This document shows positions 1,932-9,579 of a DNA stretch of 64,000 nt, in pieces (position 1 is the first letter of the stretch; the number at the start of each line of letters is the position of its first letter). Origin of the DNA: Paraglaciecola sp. T6c (GTDB lineage Bacteria > Pseudomonadota > Gammaproteobacteria > Enterobacterales > Alteromonadaceae); assembly GCF_000014225.1 (NCBI RefSeq), contig NC_008228.1, positions 3,596,001-3,660,000 of the forward strand. Reading direction: 5' to 3'. The notes below the pieces were generated by a model. That model was given only the letters and a program-made list of their open reading frames with translations, ran no database searches and was not told where the DNA came from. The translations under genes and the position numbers were made by a program.

Positions 1932-2564
1932 ATGAACCAACAGAAACGTGTAGAGATGTTAACGAGGTGGCGTGATGCTAACCCGCACCCTACAACTGAA
2001 TTGAACTTCACAAGTCCCTTCGAGCTACTGATTGCCGTTTTGCTCTCAGCTCAGGCGACCGACGTGAGCGTTAATAAAGCCATGGCCAAGATGTTCCCTG
2101 TAGCCAATACACCTGAAGCTGTTTACGCCCTGGGCGTGGATGGCGTAAAAGAGTTCATTAAAACCATTGGGCTGTTTAATACCAAAGCCGTGAATGTGAT
2201 CAAAACCTGCAAGATGCTTATCGAGCAACATAACAGCGTGGTTCCAGAGGATCGCGCAGCCCTAGAGGCATTACCTGGCGTTGGTCGCAAAACAGCAAAT
2301 GTGGTGCTTAATACGGCCTTTGGCTGGCCGACAATCGCAGTAGATACGCATATATATCGTGTTTCTAACCGCACTAAGTTAGCAATGGGTAAAACTGTTG
2401 ATGACGTTGAACAGAAACTGCTTAAGGTTGTTCCTACAGAATTTAAAGTCGACGTGCACCACTGGCTAATACTCCACGGACGTTACACCTGCATCGCTCG
2501 TAAACCACGTTGCGGTTCTTGCATTATCGAAGATTTGTGTGAATTTAAAGATAAAGTAGATTAG
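1932..2564 (+). CDS. nth: Endonuclease III (DNA glycosylase/AP lyase)
   Basis: Nth removes oxidised pyrimidines from DNA and cleaves the abasic site in base-excision repair. All functional elements are present at the same numbering as in E. coli: helix-hairpin-helix LPGVGRKTANVV with catalytic Lys120, catalytic Asp138 (AVDTH), and the [4Fe-4S] cysteines 187, 194, 197 and 203 (C-x6-C-x2-C-x5-C). The 210-residue length is normal. It is the intact member of a set of three nth 3' ends: broken copies at 4181-4426 and 8196-8447 both start at the codon matching Phe130. Its own last part may therefore have been replaced during insertion of the island that follows. Confidence 0.98.
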   Translation: MNQQKRVEMLTRWRDANPHPTTELNFTSPFELLIAVLLSAQATDVSVNKAMAKMFPVANTPEAVYALGVDGVKEFIKTIGLFNTKAVNVIKTCKMLIEQHNSVVPEDRAALEALPGVGRKTANVVLNTAFGWPTIAVDTHIYRVSNRTKLAMGKTVDDVEQKLLKVVPTEFKVDVHHWLILHGRYTCIARKPRCGSCIIEDLCEFKDKVD

Positions 2565-2636
2565 TTAATCGTTTGCTTTTAAAGCGCTAAACTGCCATTC
2601 AACTATAGAATTTTCGTCACCATGGTTATTAACCGT

Positions 2637-2662
2637 ATTAGGCACATTGTGTTGTGCCTAAT
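2637..2662. terminator. Hairpin downstream of nth
   Basis: A perfect 10-bp inverted repeat (ATTAGGCACA / TGTGCCTAAT) with a 6-nt loop lies 72 bp after the nth stop. No run of T follows, so it is at most a weak or factor-dependent terminator. A second, AT-only 10-bp inverted repeat lies at 2674-2697, just before the 3' end of the convergent DoxX gene. Confidence 0.35.
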
Positions 2663-2720
2663 TCGACAAATTTAAAAAGAAAATACATTTTCTTTTTGCG
2701 TATAAAATACGTTTTGTAGG

Positions 2721-3077
2721 TTATACCGGATACCAAATCGCTTCTTTTTTACGAATAAAAATCGCGTAAACGGCCAAACCGATAAATATCACCGCTGGTA
2801 TTGCTGAAGGTTCTTCATAGGCAATATGATAGTAAACAGCACCTATCATTACTGGAATTACTCCAGTCGCGGCCAGTGCAGTCCACTTGCGGACAAACAT
2901 TGCAATACCAGCGAGCAACTCAGCTAGGCCAATAAAATACCCAAACCACTCGGGCAACCCCATTTTTGCAAAACTAGCGTGTACCTCCGGCAAACCAGCT
3001 AATTTAGCTCCACCAGCCAAAATCATTACCAATCCAAGCAGTACAAGCGGCACCCAAAGTAATATTTTTTTCATCAT
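2721..3077 (-). CDS. DoxX-family small membrane protein
   Basis: This 118-residue protein consists of four predicted membrane helices and has the pattern of DoxX/DoxX-like proteins (LAGGAKLAGLPEVHASFAKMG near the N terminus, GLAELLAGIAMF in the middle). Members are small inner-membrane proteins, some linked to quinone or thiol oxidation, but no specific reaction can be assigned. ATG codons at 3077 and 3074 are both possible; GAGAGAAA precedes them. It is divergent from the LysR gene at 3177 with a 99-bp gap, the usual arrangement of a LysR regulator and its target. It sits in the accessory segment between the intact nth and the first broken nth copy. Confidence 0.85.
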   Translation of the reverse strand: MMKKILLWVPLVLLGLVMILAGGAKLAGLPEVHASFAKMGLPEWFGYFIGLAELLAGIAMFVRKWTALAATGVIPVMIGAVYYHIAYEEPSAIPAVIFIGLAVYAIFIRKKEAIWYPV

Positions 3078-3176
3078 TTTCTCTCAAGATTATCAATTTC
3101 AGTGCGTAGACTATAAACAACCATTTAGTTAACATATATTGATATTAACTTATAAACTTGATGCATAATTTTTATC

Positions 3177-4070
3177 ATGATTACAATCGAACAATTAAAA
3201 GTGTTGAAAGCAATTGCAGAAGAAAAGTCACTAAGGGCAGCAGCAAGTAAACTAAACAAAACACAACCCGCATTAAGCCATTCACTTAAGCAGCTAGAAA
3301 CACAACTCGGATTGGAACTATTCACAAGAGATAGCTATAGGTTAAGCTTAACTAACGCAGGTAAAACTGCGCTTCAAATGGCCCTTAAAGCTCTTCGAGA
3401 GGTATCGTTGATTGAACAATATGCAAATCACTTAAATCTAGGAAATGAAGCAAAAGTCATTATTGCTATAGAAGCAGCATTCCCTATTGAACCGCTTTTT
3501 CCGGTATTTGAACAAATAAAAAACCAATTCCCTTCGACTCAACTTTCTTTAACTCAAGAATATGTAACCGGCGCTTTACAACTTGTGGCGGAGGGTAAAG
3601 CACAATTAGCCGTGACTGGTGCCCCAATTGATTACTTAGCCAAGTCTAGCGAACTTTTCTCAAAACAGATCGCAGAAGGTGAGTTGATTAACGTAGCAAC
3701 ACCACAAATGCTAGAAAGATATCAACCATTGGATTCAATAGAAGCGCTTGTCAATGAAAATCAGATCATAGTGAAAGACACAGGTAAAATAACGCAGGAC
3801 AATTATTTCAACACACAAACAGGACAAAAGCGCTGGTACGTAAACAGCTTTGAAGCGAAGCATAAACTCATATCCCATAGTCTAGGTTGGGGAATGTTGC
3901 CTGAACATTTCATTTCTAATCAATTAGCTTCGGGAGCCTTACAGAAAATTAGGGTCGCAGATAAAAAATGTTCAAGTACGTTTCCATTTTATTTGATAAA
4001 AAATAAATCAAAAATCCTTGGTCCAGTAGCGACTGAAATTTGGAATGCCTTCTCAGAACTCAAGCTTTGA
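3177..4070 (+). CDS. LysR-family transcriptional regulator
   Basis: A 297-residue LysR regulator. The N-terminal winged helix-turn-helix (about residues 1-60, with LNKTQPALSHSLKQLE and LGLELFTR) is typical, and the remainder is the effector-binding domain. It is divergent from the DoxX-like gene at 2721-3077 and probably controls it, by analogy with LysR pairs; the effector is unknown. The gene is rich in AT and lysine codons compared with the rsx/nth genes beside it, fitting recent acquisition. It ends about 110 bp before the first broken nth copy. Confidence 0.9.
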   Translation: MITIEQLKVLKAIAEEKSLRAAASKLNKTQPALSHSLKQLETQLGLELFTRDSYRLSLTNAGKTALQMALKALREVSLIEQYANHLNLGNEAKVIIAIEAAFPIEPLFPVFEQIKNQFPSTQLSLTQEYVTGALQLVAEGKAQLAVTGAPIDYLAKSSELFSKQIAEGELINVATPQMLERYQPLDSIEALVNENQIIVKDTGKITQDNYFNTQTGQKRWYVNSFEAKHKLISHSLGWGMLPEHFISNQLASGALQKIRVADKKCSSTFPFYLIKNKSKILGPVATEIWNAFSELKL

Positions 4071-4180
4071 AACTAGTACATATCGCTACGTATCAGAATG
4101 AACCCATTCAAAATATTGTTTGCAAATACTCGAATGTAATCATATTAAACGCTTAGAAATAACCTCTACCTTCCTTGTGC

Positions 4181-4426
4181 TTTGCTGGGCCTACCATTGC
4201 GGTAGATGCACATATATTCAGTGTTTCCAACCGCATTAAGATCGCCATGGGCAAAAATGTCGATTTAGCTGAACAGAATCAGCTTAAAGTGGTACCGGCT
4301 GAATTTAAAGTGGACGTGCATGATTGGTTGATACTACATGACAGATACATTTGTATGGCCCGTCAACCGCGCTGTGGCGCATGTGTTATTGAAGACTTGT
4401 GTGAGTTTAAAGATAAAACAGAGTAA
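4181..4426 (+). pseudogene. Broken nth 3' end, copy 2
   Basis: This stretch encodes 81 residues colinear with residues 130-210 of the intact Nth (FAGPTIAVDAH ... CEFKDKTE) and ends in TAA. The Fe-S cysteine pattern and the Asp138 equivalent are kept, but the helix-hairpin-helix, catalytic Lys120 and everything before are absent, so it cannot be an active glycosylase. Similarity to nth starts at the codon for Phe130. A TTG start could open a short frame at 4175, but there is no convincing ribosome site. Over the 77 nt at 4301-4377 it differs from the intact gene at 21 positions, so it is not a recent duplicate of it. Confidence 0.88.
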
Positions 4427-4512
4427 GTAATAAAATATCTCTAATAATATGTAAGTTGCTTTACCTAAACAAATGTAACTAATCCAATATGAAATATTAT
4501 TAATATCACTCA

Positions 4513-5253
4513 TCAATGCTTAAACATTCCTTTTTGCAAAAAGTGAATAGTTTGCTGGGCAACTTCTAGGTTATAACGCATCATAGAATGACTCACTTCA
4601 ATGGTAATGAAATCACTCATGGTATCTACCTTGGTTGACGCCACCGATACTAATCCATCATTTGGGCCTGTAAAGTTTGCATTGGTTAGGCCAAATGATT
4701 TTGTACCTGCAATTACCCCAATATTCACATCTAAAGCATTCAAGTTGTTGCCTAAGCTGTGAGTCCCAGTAACCAATGCGCGACTTATGCCGCCGCCAAT
4801 ATCCATTAACCACGAGTCACTCAAGTGATCGGCCAACTCACTTCCTTTGTTGGGGGTGCCAATGAGTACAACTTCGCCAATTCTAGCTTTTTGTAACTTG
4901 TGAGTTTTATTTTGTAGGTAACCTCTAATAACCAATCCGCCAAGGGAGTGCCCCACAAAATGCACCTTTGGGGCGTTTAAAATACATGCGTCGATTTGGG
5001 TGCGTGTTTCTGTCAATACCTCAGCAACACTTACACCGATACTCTGATAATCCAAACTACAGACTTTATAGCCAGCATCCTCTAATCGTTGTGCAAAACG
5101 CCACATTGCCCAGTCGCTTCTCCCTAACCCATGAGCTATTACTACAAGCTCATCATCTGGTTTGTAGGTAGGTAAGCTTTCAGTAGAGTTGGCACAGCCA
5201 GCTATTTGCTGGCTTAGAAAAAATAGAATGCTGGTAACTATGCTCTTTGTCAT
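4513..5253 (-). CDS. Lipoprotein lipase/esterase of the alpha/beta-hydrolase fold
   Basis: Starting at the ATG at 5253, the 246-residue product has a lipoprotein signal (MTKSIVTSILFFLSQQIAGC, lipobox IAGC, Cys20). The alpha/beta-hydrolase core follows: oxyanion region IAHGLGRSDW (39-48), nucleophile elbow GHSLGG with Ser103, a probable acid Asp199 (PNDGLV) and His222 (SHSMM). It resembles triacylglycerol lipase/PGAP1-like enzymes anchored in the envelope. The frame stays open upstream to 5346, but that would run into the neighbouring gene and hide the signal peptide. It lies 8 bp downstream of the FISUMP gene, probably in one transcript. Substrate unknown. Confidence 0.85.
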   Translation of the reverse strand: MTKSIVTSILFFLSQQIAGCANSTESLPTYKPDDELVVIAHGLGRSDWAMWRFAQRLEDAGYKVCSLDYQSIGVSVAEVLTETRTQIDACILNAPKVHFVGHSLGGLVIRGYLQNKTHKLQKARIGEVVLIGTPNKGSELADHLSDSWLMDIGGGISRALVTGTHSLGNNLNALDVNIGVIAGTKSFGLTNANFTGPNDGLVSVASTKVDTMSDFITIEVSHSMMRYNLEVAQQTIHFLQKGMFKH

Positions 5254-5261
5254 TATTGGCT

Positions 5262-5993
5262 CTAATTTTTCACGCATCTTACAGAAAACATGTAATTCTT
5301 GTTTAGCTTTTCCCGGCGAATTTCTCCTTTGTGTGTATTCCACCAAGAATAAGCAAGGGTTCTGGCGTAGGCTTGTTTTTCAGTGGCAGAGCTGCCGGTC
5401 CAAAATTCTGTATACATACCTTGTGTAAGATACCAATTGCCAATTTTGACACCCGCTGGGCTAGCTGAGAATTGATATTTGTTTACCTGTGACTGATCAA
5501 AACCTTTAAAAATTGTGTCTTGTTGCTCGGCTTTAAGTGTAATGGCAATATCATTGTCACCTCTCCAGCCGAGTGTATCTAGTTCAGACTCAGATATACC
5601 AATACTTTTTTCCAAGGCTTTCCAATCATCATCTGATGCTATTCGCCAACCAACTGGGCAAATATTTCGCTCATCCACTACATCGTGCCAATCGTAGAGT
5701 CGGCCATGTTTTAATAGGTTTTCTTCTTTATCATCGGGAATAAAGCCAGTATTAATCTTAGTTCCGTCTTGATACTTAGTGACCCTTAAGTTTTCAGCTA
5801 ACCAGATTTGCTCGCCAATTTTCACTGTGCGATAAGTGTTACCGTCAATGTCTTGAACTGTTTCTTGGTTAGCGTTTTGAATCGCGTCGCGTGCGCTGCT
5901 TTTCAGATTATTCTCGTCGTTAGCTGATGACGATATAGGAGTTAACATACCTATCCCCAAAATAAAGATTAATGCTTTCATAATTTTTGCCAA
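5262..5993 (-). CDS. Secreted FISUMP-domain protein
   Basis: The 243-residue product has a signal peptide (about residues 1-24, ending SSSA) and one FISUMP domain: DGNTYRTVKIGEQIWLAENL near residues 50-69, then GRLYDWHDV, CPVGWRIASDDDWKALE, a central WTGSS segment and the terminal FSVRCVKN. FISUMP domains are most common in Bacteroidetes and Fibrobacteres surface proteins; their biochemical role is poorly known. An alternative start is the ATG at 5981 (MKALIF). The gene is flanked by the lipase and the SDR gene on the same strand with 8-bp and 15-bp gaps. A single such protein in an Alteromonadales-like genome suggests acquisition by transfer. Confidence 0.82.
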   Translation of the reverse strand: MAKIMKALIFILGIGMLTPISSSANDENNLKSSARDAIQNANQETVQDIDGNTYRTVKIGEQIWLAENLRVTKYQDGTKINTGFIPDDKEENLLKHGRLYDWHDVVDERNICPVGWRIASDDDWKALEKSIGISESELDTLGWRGDNDIAITLKAEQQDTIFKGFDQSQVNKYQFSASPAGVKIGNWYLTQGMYTEFWTGSSATEKQAYARTLAYSWWNTHKGEIRREKLNKNYMFSVRCVKN

Positions 5994-6008
5994 ACATAAT
6001 AGATTGAA

Positions 6009-6959
6009 TTAAAAGGGCCAATAAATAGATGTTTCTCTTTCAGATAGCGTCCATAACTTTGTTAATACCTCTTTGTTTAATGCAAATGACTCAAGTTTGC
6101 CTTCTCCTACTGGGCCTCCGAAATTCATAAACCCAGTTGGGCCGTAATACGCACGCTCCTTTAAGCTATCTTCGGTCGCACACATCACTTCTGGGTAAGC
6201 GCCTTTTTCTGCGGTTTGCGCAATGCCTATCTTTACCATGAATGCCCAAGATATTCTGGTCATAAAGCTGGCGCTTTCTCTGATAAGGGAGGTGTTAGAT
6301 GCGCCAGGGTGGCAAACGTAAACTTTGACATTTTTACCTGCTGCTTTGACCTTGTCTTGTAATTCGTATGCAAACATCATTTGGGCAAGTTTACTTTGGC
6401 TATACACTTTATTTGGATGATAATTTTTATCCCAATTCATATCGTCAAACTGAATGCTTCTTATCCCCATTTTATGGCCTTCACTCGACACCACCACAAT
6501 TCTGCCCTGTGATGCTTCGATGCGACCAAAAAGTAAACCGCACAATAAGAAATGGCCGTAATGATTTACCCCTAGTTGGCTTTCAAATCCATCTACCGTT
6601 AATTGCTGGGTAGAGATCTGTGCAATAGCGCCGTTACACATAAGTGCATCAATTTTAGGGACTTCCGCTAATACTTGTTTCGATGCTTGTCTAATTGAGG
6701 CTAGCTCTGCTAAATCCATCCGTATATAGCTTACAGCGGTAGCATCACCAAATTCATTTTTAAGCTCTGCGATTGCAGCTTCTGATTTACTTGGGTTGCG
6801 GTTCAACATTACCACGTTAGCGCCCTTAGACAACAAGATACGTGTAGCTTGAAAACCTGCTCCAGTATTGGCTCCAGTAATAACAAAGGTTTTGCCCGCA
6901 AGTGAGCCGATACGCTCTGGGGTCCAACCATTCGGACCAAATCGATTTGTAGTAGTCAT
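6009..6959 (-). CDS. Short-chain dehydrogenase/reductase
   Basis: A 316-residue classical SDR oxidoreductase. The cofactor motif TGANTGAG is at residues 28-35, the segment NGAI (109-112) corresponds to the NNAG strand, Ser158/159 lies in the active-site strand, and the catalytic YxxxK is Tyr186/Lys190 (YSQSK). It resembles the retinol dehydrogenase/protochlorophyllide reductase-like SDRs, which prefer NADP(H). The substrate cannot be told from sequence. It is divergent from an AraC regulator at 7170, which probably controls it, and the FISUMP and lipase genes follow on the same strand. Confidence 0.9.
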   Translation of the reverse strand: MTTTNRFGPNGWTPERIGSLAGKTFVITGANTGAGFQATRILLSKGANVVMLNRNPSKSEAAIAELKNEFGDATAVSYIRMDLAELASIRQASKQVLAEVPKIDALMCNGAIAQISTQQLTVDGFESQLGVNHYGHFLLCGLLFGRIEASQGRIVVVSSEGHKMGIRSIQFDDMNWDKNYHPNKVYSQSKLAQMMFAYELQDKVKAAGKNVKVYVCHPGASNTSLIRESASFMTRISWAFMVKIGIAQTAEKGAYPEVMCATEDSLKERAYYGPTGFMNFGGPVGEGKLESFALNKEVLTKLWTLSERETSIYWPF

Positions 6960-7169
6960 AAATCACCCTCAATTTTAATTAAACCAGTAACGGCTAAAGC
7001 AGTTACTGATTCAAAACTTAAATTATTTTATGAAGCTAATATAATCTCTTTGCCTAGAGCTAAATAGGCGGAATAGTCTCTAAAAATTGCCTATTTGTAT
7101 CATCATGTTGATTTTTGATGCTCATCTGGTTAATTTGAAAATAATTTCATAGGAGTGAAGGCAATTCAC

Positions 7170-8063
7170 ATGAGTAAAGAGTTAATTAGACAGCTCATTG
7201 ACGCAAAAGCAGGCCAAAGTGGCATGATAGAAACCAGAATTAGTGGCGTGCAATTGTTTAAAATAACGGAGCCAATTCGCTGTGCTCCTGCACTGTACGA
7301 ACCATCTGTTACGGCAATAGTCAGTGGTGGAAAAGAAGCCATTTGGAATGGCAATAAACATTATTATGATAAAAATAAATATATTTGCTGCACTATGTCT
7401 ATGCCAATAGAAGCTGGTACCCCAGAAGCTTCACCTGATAACCCTCTTATGGGTGTGTACATATCCTTAAATACTAGAGTGATGACAGAGTTAGCCATTG
7501 AATTGGAAAGTGCTACAGGCGTGACATACAAAGTCAAAGAGTCTGTGCATCCGCAAGGCATATCCACAGCTAATTGGGATGAGGCGTTCACTGACGCTCT
7601 ATATCGGTTAATAATGTTAGAAAAAAGTACTACAGATATAGCAATACTTGGTAGTAGCCGTATACGAGAGCTTTACTATGCAATATTAAAAGGAGATTCA
7701 GGTTACGCGGTCAGACGCTCATTTGGGGTAGGAAACGAAATTGCTCGTTCGATTGAATTGCTGTCTTCTAATCTAAACGAGTCTGTAACAATCGAAAACC
7801 TAGCGCATCAAGTCGGTATGAGTCGCGCGGTGTTTCATCGTAAATTCAAACAAGCAACGAGTATGTCACCTATCCAATTCGTTAAATCTATGAGGCTGAA
7901 CAACGCTGCCATGAAAATTGCTGAAGGGAGAAATGTTAATGTCGCCGCCATGGAAGTCGGCTATGTCAGTTCATCGCAATTCAGTCGAGATTTTAAAAGA
8001 ATGTACGGTCAAGCTCCAAAGCAATGGAGCCAAACAATAGAAAGAAAAAACAACAGGGTTTGA
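7170..8063 (+). CDS. AraC-family transcriptional regulator (YqhC-like)
   Basis: The product is about 297 residues: an N-terminal AraC-type ligand domain followed by two helix-turn-helix motifs in the last 100 residues (ENLAHQVGMSRAVFHRKF and VAAMEVGYVSSSQFSRDFKR). The ATG at 7170 is preferred over the in-frame GTG at 7155 because GAAGG lies 8 nt before it. Regulators of this type often sit divergent to an oxidoreductase gene that responds to aldehydes, and here the divergent neighbour is an SDR with a 210-bp gap. The inducer is unknown. The gene is in the accessory segment bounded by broken nth copies. Confidence 0.9.
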   Translation: MSKELIRQLIDAKAGQSGMIETRISGVQLFKITEPIRCAPALYEPSVTAIVSGGKEAIWNGNKHYYDKNKYICCTMSMPIEAGTPEASPDNPLMGVYISLNTRVMTELAIELESATGVTYKVKESVHPQGISTANWDEAFTDALYRLIMLEKSTTDIAILGSSRIRELYYAILKGDSGYAVRRSFGVGNEIARSIELLSSNLNESVTIENLAHQVGMSRAVFHRKFKQATSMSPIQFVKSMRLNNAAMKIAEGRNVNVAAMEVGYVSSSQFSRDFKRMYGQAPKQWSQTIERKNNRV

Positions 8064-8195
8064 GCGTCGAATAAAATAATTTCATTCCCACGGTTTACTC
8101 TGAACGATTCAACTATGTCAATAAACTGGAAAAATTGAAGAAAGTCTCAAAATAGTGCCAATATGTAGACCATTTTCCATCTATCTTTCTTTTCT

Positions 8196-8447
8196 TTTAG
8201 CTGCCCTACTATTACGGTAGATACCCACATTGACCGTGTCAGTAACCTGACTAAATTTGCGATAAGAAAAAATGTTGATTTGGTTGAGAAAAAGCTGCAT
8301 AAAGTCGTACCCGCTGAATTTAAAGTCGACGTGCACCACTGGCTAATACTCCACGGACGTTACACTTGCATCGCTCGTAAACCACGTTGCGGAAGCTGTA
8401 TAGTGGAAGATTTATGTGAGTTTAAAGATAAAACTTCAGACGAATGA
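8196..8447 (+). pseudogene. Broken nth 3' end, copy 3
   Basis: This segment encodes residues matching Nth 130 to the C terminus (CPTITVDTHIDRV ... CEFKDKTSDE) and ends in TGA, with no start or N-terminal domain. The frame is intact although it is not a functional gene. It begins at the TTT codon equivalent to Phe130, the same breakpoint as copy 2. Comparison with the intact gene by eye: 38 differences in the first 120 nt, then one difference in the next 77 nt (8316-8392 against 2439-2515), then divergence again. The ywbE-like gene follows after 33 bp, so this may be the original nth end displaced by an insertion. Confidence 0.88.
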
Positions 8448-8480: not shown

Positions 8481-8675
8481 ATGGACGGCACTAAACGTGC
8501 GAACGTAAAAATAGGGGCTGAGGTGTCAGTTGTGCTAAAAGAGCATCAGCGCTCTGGTGAATTAACACAGGGGACCGTTGCAAGGCTTCTGACTAACTCC
8601 CCTAACCACCCCCATGGTATTAAAGTGAGGCTCGAAGACGGTCAAGTGGGCCGGGTTAAGGTTATTCACAATTAA
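8481..8675 (+). CDS. YwbE-family small protein
   Basis: A 64-residue protein of the YwbE family (DUF2196), recognised by the pattern KIGAEVSVVLKEHQRSGELTQG, the conserved SPNHPHGIKVRLEDGQVGRV and its length. The fold is a small beta domain of unknown function. A good ribosome site (GAGAAGGA) precedes the ATG. It lies 33 bp after the broken nth copy 3, which suggests it once followed nth directly. Confidence 0.88.
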   Translation: MDGTKRANVKIGAEVSVVLKEHQRSGELTQGTVARLLTNSPNHPHGIKVRLEDGQVGRVKVIHN

Positions 8676-9501: not shown

Positions 9502-9579
9502 CCTGGCGCTATAACATCGCCATCAAACTTACGTTTTGAAAACCTGTTGCGGGGAAGAGCTAGCCCCCTCTGGTTTGGG

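Follow-up and report, generated by a model that had tools for sequence, protein, structure and literature searches.

How does a core DNA-repair gene come to be followed by two further copies of its own 3' end, with unrelated genes lodged between them? This is the question raised by the nth locus of Paraglaciecola sp. T6c, which we studied in a window of 64,000 nucleotides (positions 3596001-3660000 of contig NC_008228.1; genome G000, contig C1 in our numbering, in which G-numbers stand for the compared genomes; coordinates below are window positions). An earlier note on this DNA had proposed repeated integration at codon 130 of nth, each insert bringing its own nth 3' end and pushing the old end downstream. 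Our comparisons support this idea, through empty sites, a break in identity within nth itself, a displaced native end and a large serine recombinase (LSR) found at the same junction in other genomes. We consider it probable that LSR islands use nth as their attachment site attB, and that the integrase-less cassettes left over from them are shuffled by homologous recombination between nth copies. The parts of the locus on which the argument turns are the following.

1932-2564, plus strand: intact nth
1932..2318, plus strand: nth codons 1-129, host-derived 5' part
2319..2329, plus strand: core TTTGGCTGGCC at codon 130, the putative crossover point
2319..2564, plus strand: foreign 3' end of intact nth
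4164..4180, plus strand: degenerate arm (P arm) of a predicted attP site, cassette 1; the fragment in G054 has a similar flank
4181..4426, plus strand: f1, displaced nth 3' copy (72% amino-acid identity; the match covers nth codons 128-209)
8179..8195, plus strand: P arm, cassette 2
8196..8447, plus strand: f2, displaced native nth 3' end (80% amino-acid identity to intact nth, codons 129-209)
8314..8382, plus strand: tract of f2 nearly matching intact nth
8481..8675, plus strand: ywbE (DUF2196 by Pfam), ancestral right neighbour of nth, starting 33 bp after the end of f2

The state of the locus without an insert can be seen in its relatives. We searched 22 genomes of the same genus, the window genome included, for nth and ywbE. 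Seven of them have nth directly before ywbE (G002, G003, G007, G008, G010, G013 and G016), with 15-45 bases between the two matches; another seven carry an insert of 1.3-11.7 kb between the genes on a single contig (G000, G005, G009, G011, G014, G019 and G020); in the remaining eight the genes lie on separate contigs or one of them was not found. Strains with nth directly before ywbE, which the earlier note had proposed to look for, therefore establish nth-ywbE as the ancestral order, and its guess that ywbE is the original neighbour of nth is borne out.

The nearest empty-site relative, G008, has a ywbE protein identical to that of the window. Compared with the G008 gene, window nth is 94.1% identical in nucleotides over codons 1-129 and drops at the core, to 74.1% over codons 130-165 and 78.8% over codons 166-209. 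It is f2 that comes closest to the end of the G008 gene (83.5% identity, with a KTSDE tail in both), and when the window flanks are joined at codon 130 the resulting sequence aligns to G008 through nth into ywbE. It follows that f2 is the displaced native end and that the end now borne by the intact gene came from elsewhere; window nth is a chimera of a host 5' part and a foreign 3' end. Within f2, three blocks in the tract 8314-8382 match the intact gene at 95-100%, most other blocks at 65-73% and the last block at 91%, a pattern in which the tract is a probable gene conversion. The break at codon 130 recurs in other genomes. Seven same-genus pairs are 84% identical or more over the nth 5' part. 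All five of them with an occupied site lose identity behind codon 130 (94.1 to 75.1, 91.7 to 81.8, 87.6 to 66.7, 85.0 to 79.6 and 84.5 to 69.8%), and the two pairs in which both sites are empty show no such loss (92.5 to 96.1 and 84.5 to 86.8%). Between G085 and G117, of another genus, nth identity falls from 99.5 to 83.6% across codon 130; between G314 and G182, which hold the same LSR element, it goes from 96.9 to 100%.

In alignment, both window fragments start with the Phe130 codon and have an uninterrupted frame up to the stop codon, as the earlier note had seen; the one further nth match in the window genome is a distant homologue elsewhere (30% identity). Aligned junctions show a conserved arm of about 17 bp, with consensus ATCTACCTTCATTATCT, preceding the core TTTGGCTGGCC, and intact copies start at codon ~130. 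The core, with small changes, is common to intact nth genes and most fragments; several old copies are truncated short of it, and some fragments are shortened or carry stops. A matrix of the arm, built from 47 junctions that all come from other genomes and include two visibly out of register, was run over 127,968 window positions and placed the f2 arm first and the f1 arm 19th. Because the same start and arm recur in many genomes and the window arms rank this high, the common start is not a matter of chance, and the argument that random decay would not produce it gains force. An extra nth 3' copy is present in at least 27 of 118 genomes of the family (counted by eye among the matches listed), and other cargo between nth copies with breakpoints at codon 130, as anticipated by the earlier note, was found in many family genomes. 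The largest arrays hold seven extra copies (G085), six (G054, one of them a weak partial match) and five (G093 and G123 each). Across 394 genomes of the order, the arm-plus-core pattern (at most three mismatches) was matched 21 times, in 15 genomes belonging to three families, and never when reversed; by coordinates all 21 lie at an nth copy, the seven from the two other families among them. The arm alone, in 24 genomes, gave 58 matches, 28 at nth by our count and 30 elsewhere, with 76 for the reversed control. A second type of arm, TTTTATCAACGGCGATAATGCCGTA before the core, was seen at junctions of G043, G020, G004 and G011, with about 100 bp of common sequence in front; no recombinase is linked to these second-type junctions.

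Which enzyme could make such junctions? In G107, an LSR of 561 amino acids (Pfam Resolvase, PF00239, E 2.3e-14) lies beside an arm and an nth fragment. Five of 395 family genomes have a homologue at 56% identity or more, the next best match reaching at most 40%, and a scan of named genomes gave five LSR loci, in Glaciecola pallidula, Pseudoalteromonas distincta, Pseudoalteromonas sp. EB27, Pseudoalteromonas sp. A601 and Shewanella olleyana. With G107, G182 and G314 being presumably the first three of these, seven genomes in total carry the LSR, and in six of the seven (Glaciecola, Pseudoalteromonas and Shewanella) the start of its gene adjoins an arm and an nth fragment. The earlier note had reported no integrase at the locus and had suggested a search for linked recombinases. 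Its statement holds for the window, whose whole genome has no PF00239 match, but a likely integrase does exist in other genera.

The opposite ends of these elements complete the picture. The left-end nth carries an inverted arm just behind the core in all five genomes whose left ends were read (G107, G132, G314, G182 and G069; the G182 ends are on two contigs). Compared with the reverse complement of the right arm, the left arm matches at 18, 19, 21 and 15 of 26 positions in G107, G132, G314 and G069, and the nth 5' flank, used as a control, at 8, 9 and 12 in the first three. The centre of this symmetry in attP is the TG of TTTGGC-TG-GC. In these five genomes attL and attR are thus built from one attP and attB. 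Read from the sequences, the junction, the chimera and the place of the predicted LSR at the junction are all directly visible; that this enzyme catalyses the integration we infer from its position and from the symmetry of the sites.

Integration of this kind leaves its mark on the protein. In the hybrid Nth the arm is translated, LKDNEGRYF standing in place of PT between Trp132 and the VDTHI motif, whose aspartate has a catalytic role (an AlphaFold model of the hybrid, with a mean pLDDT of 62.7 and values below 50 in the insertion, was not used). Seven of 36 intact genes belong to a class that we call type-B nth, within which two of the 21 arm-plus-core matches fall as inverted arms (G043 and G116). 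In the window genus, the 3' parts of type-B genes match their counterparts in other genera at 91% and differ by 28% from the standard genes of their own genus, and the 5' parts show no such cross-genus grouping; we read type-B nth as a host 5' part fused to an element-derived 3' part. In G069 the attP arm interrupts nth after codon ~131, and the frame meets a stop soon after the arm. Directly behind this broken native gene, the G069 element brings a complete Nth, only about 41% identical (L108, G069:C1:4380500-4400499, ~883-1990), which is an alternative rescue of the target function.

We propose that codon 130 of nth, with the core TTTGGCTGG, would serve as attB for LSR genomic islands, whose attP would be a near-palindrome of about 48 bp, with two arms of about 23 bp around a TG centre. 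Upon integration, nth would receive the right attP half of the island together with the island's nth 3' end, and the displaced native 3' end would keep the left attP half before it. LSR elements would in this way found the junctions, and the window would be a derivative that has neither the recombinase nor the second attP half. The second arm was presumably lost from standard nth genes by gene conversion or exchange. Leftover units of cargo, attP arm and nth 3' copy could then remain as a tandem row of cassettes, to be moved, swapped and locked, also across genera and families, through homologous recombination between nth 3' copies. A bolder version, which we rate as somewhat less likely than not, makes nth 3' ends universal homology adaptors: integrase-free arrays founded by LSR would spread among marine genera and families purely by homologous recombination between 240-bp nth copies, and repair of the hybrid gene would lock the old cassette and reopen the site to a further one.

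The window holds two such cassettes, with the contents that the earlier note had read from the translations and that Pfam confirms (its lipase being an alpha/beta hydrolase).

2565..4180, no strand: cassette 1 (DoxX and LysR)
2721-3077, minus strand: DoxX, cassette 1
3177-4070, plus strand: LysR, cassette 1
4427..8195, no strand: cassette 2 (alpha/beta hydrolase, FISUMP, SDR and AraC)
4513-5346, minus strand: alpha/beta hydrolase, cassette 2
5262-5993, minus strand: FISUMP-domain protein, cassette 2
6009-6959, minus strand: SDR, cassette 2
7155-8063, plus strand: AraC regulator, cassette 2

Both have relatives at nth in other genomes. Cassette 1 is 85.7% identical in nucleotides to DNA between nth copies in G054, of another genus, the rsxE-nth5' backbone being at 64.6%. 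Cassette 2 has a counterpart between nth copies in G093 (69% over 4515-8046) and, over 2.8 kb at 69.5%, one between nth and its fragment in G423, from another family. In G005 and G009, single-gene AraC inserts (L033 and L034) about 75% identical to the end of window cassette 2, with short nth remnants, are probably deletion derivatives.

The way in which such cassettes travel is best seen in G018 and G090, which have in common a 1.9-kb integrase-less cassette at about 99% identity on a backbone of 69-70%. The identity starts 38 bp inside the left nth copy, which holds a further diverged patch, and stops about 89 bp into the right one; this switch inside the nth copies is the clearest sign of homologous exchange. 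Between G038 and G544 the cargo is 90-100% identical and the left nth copy 51-75%, the identity stopping before the next copy; between G106 and G472, from two families, the cargo is at about 90% and both nth copies at about 75%. These two cases show that the cargo either moved on its own, leaving its nth copies behind, or had those copies replaced later. A pairwise-homoplasy test on 79 standard nth copies rejected a history free of recombination (0 and 2 of 500 permutations), and from this result and the exchanges we infer homologous exchange through nth copies, one exchange being clear and the two others fitting. The G085 array equals that of G117 plus three nth-proximal cassettes, and the displaced copy at 9554 in G085 is 95% identical to the intact end of G117, which fits cassette addition at the nth side; loss in G117 might also account for it. 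The claim that each insert brings its own nth 3' end is thus supported, with one reservation: because nth copies have been reshuffled, the intact end need not stem from the adjoining cargo. A plasmid of Shewanella baltica OS155, pSbal01 (117 kb), holds the whole rsxABCDGE-nth operon (L128, 75306-89545) and is a possible carrier of nth homology.

The integrase-less cassettes might instead be moved by site-specific recombination in trans, through an LSR or other recombinase encoded elsewhere. They retain the attP arm and the codon-130 junction and are found as units in different genera and families, as this explanation would have it; yet neither the window genome nor six others of the 23 tested (G009, G018, G019, G036, G042 and G050) has a PF00239 match, the second attP arm is absent from window nth and other standard-type nth genes, the G018/G090 identity switches within nth copies, and in the two other exchanges the cargo moved separately from the nth copies. 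We regard trans mobilisation as unlikely. That the copies are kept for a function of their own, in cargo expression or as a small protein, with integration incidental, is far less credible: many are stop-free, at 72-91% amino-acid identity, but others carry stops and deletions, and open frames can be maintained by homologous exchange with intact nth.

Slightly less credible again is insertion by a tyrosine integrase or a Xer system. Tyrosine integrases often target conserved stretches of genes and rebuild the gene end. Two PF00589 genes, integron-integrase-like by eye, lie within a 65-kb Glaciecola island (L074, G107:C2), and short open reading frames (ORFs) near the locus in G012 and G004 resemble pieces of tyrosine recombinases by eye. 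A short piece in G004 (L044, 1895-2167) is related to the tyrosine recombinases of the Glaciecola island, and genes or pieces resembling integron integrases by eye occur only in G107 and G004. However, arrays from 12 genomes were searched for PF00589 and those of 11 have no match, an LSR lies at the element end, and a near-palindromic attP of about 48 bp is what would be expected of a serine integrase. Finally, the decay of full-length nth duplicates around ancestral cargo, to which the shortened or stop-bearing fragments might point, can be set aside given the common start at codon ~130 with its conserved arm in front, the empty sites, the chimera break in window nth and cargo that is more alike across genera than the backbone.

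Several observations nevertheless sit uneasily with LSR islands at nth and homologous shuffling of what they leave. The second attP half is absent from the intact nth of the window, so that loss or repair must be assumed, and the f1 arm is degenerate. Five junctions carry the second type of arm, and a sixth match to its pattern occurs in G197. Other genes separate the cassette-1 relative in G054 from the next upstream nth copy, and the point at which identity between G106 and G472 changes is 150-190 bp away from the nth copies, towards the cargo. The LSR has no match to the Pfam Recombinase domain, its zinc-ribbon score falls just below the cut-off, and no relative of solved structure was found for it in the PDB; in G069 it lies inside the island, away from both ends. 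The window genome, as said, has no resolvase-family match, and LSR remnants are absent from the fetched arrays apart from the LSR elements themselves. Last, over all same-genus pairs the N-minus-C difference in identity barely separates empty from occupied sites (-3.3, -1.1 and -0.8), an averaging-out of the drop that we put down to saturation.

The cargo itself was surveyed in 128 of the 141 located ORFs, the 13 of G117 being omitted as largely duplicates of those of G085. It consists mostly of regulators, enzymes and unknowns, judging by the 25 commonest of 127 Pfam families and likewise by PHROG. Defence or phage cargo was considered and rejected, with only two PADLOC families, one ORF each, in the 128 ORFs. 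A phage or plasmid vehicle was rejected as well: the LSR matches at only about 34-37% in five phage records and 26-29% in five plasmid records, and the patterns used picked up no LSR relative in IMG/VR viral contigs, where the arm had no exact match either. Neither by phage genes nor by LSR or arm in viral contigs do these elements qualify as prophages or satellites.

The comparisons thus define a hotspot for integration within a core gene of DNA repair, present in three or more families of a single bacterial order, for which a likely recombinase and att sites can be named. It suggests that integrase-free gene exchange is a possible builder of ordered gene arrays. Mobile DNA repeatedly rewrites a repair enzyme close to its active site, and therefore nth trees, as well as pseudogene calls at the nth locus, can mislead. 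The predicted attP/attB pair could also serve as a new integration tool.

Recombinase islands that restore their target gene are known. The earlier note had held that nth is not an established integration hotspot, and indeed no paper in the open-access literature that we searched names nth as an integration site, which is not proof, as island databases (TIGER/Islander) lay outside the search and may hold nth islands. PMC4246890 deals with the help that the Nth protein gives to the integration of CTXphi; passages from PMC12884075 make no mention of nth. We found no earlier report, in the open-access literature searched, of the nth site, of a translated attP half or of integrase-free arrays.

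Among known systems, LSR islands and prophages in coding genes are alike in having a serine recombinase with a Resolvase domain at the attachment site, a near-palindromic attP longer than the core and an attB within a gene. The LSR elements described here have such a recombinase at the element end; the window has none, and is at most a derivative. The nth system differs in its site, in the ~80 codons that the element carries, in the translation of one attP half and in that most cassettes are seen without a recombinase. The staphylococcal cassette chromosome (SCC) and pseudo-SCC elements at rlmH (orfX) have in common with it a serine recombinase, insertion at the 3' part of a housekeeping gene, tandem composites and recombinase-less members. 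SCC is inserted at rlmH by Ccr recombinases, and the site here is nth; also, SCC adds a short att sequence only, whereas the nth system swaps a diverged 240-bp gene end and alters the hybrid protein. Elements e14 and phage 21 at icd carry a diverged 3' end of their target gene, but by means of a tyrosine integrase and as single insertions. Integron arrays, for their part, depend on an integron integrase, and none is found among the window cassette genes, just as the arrays of 11 other genomes have no gene matching PF00589. They resemble the nth arrays in their ordered cassettes, the newer ones apparently beside a fixed site, as the comparison of G085 with G117 suggests, and they differ from them in that the repeat unit at nth is the end of a gene and movement is apparently homologous.

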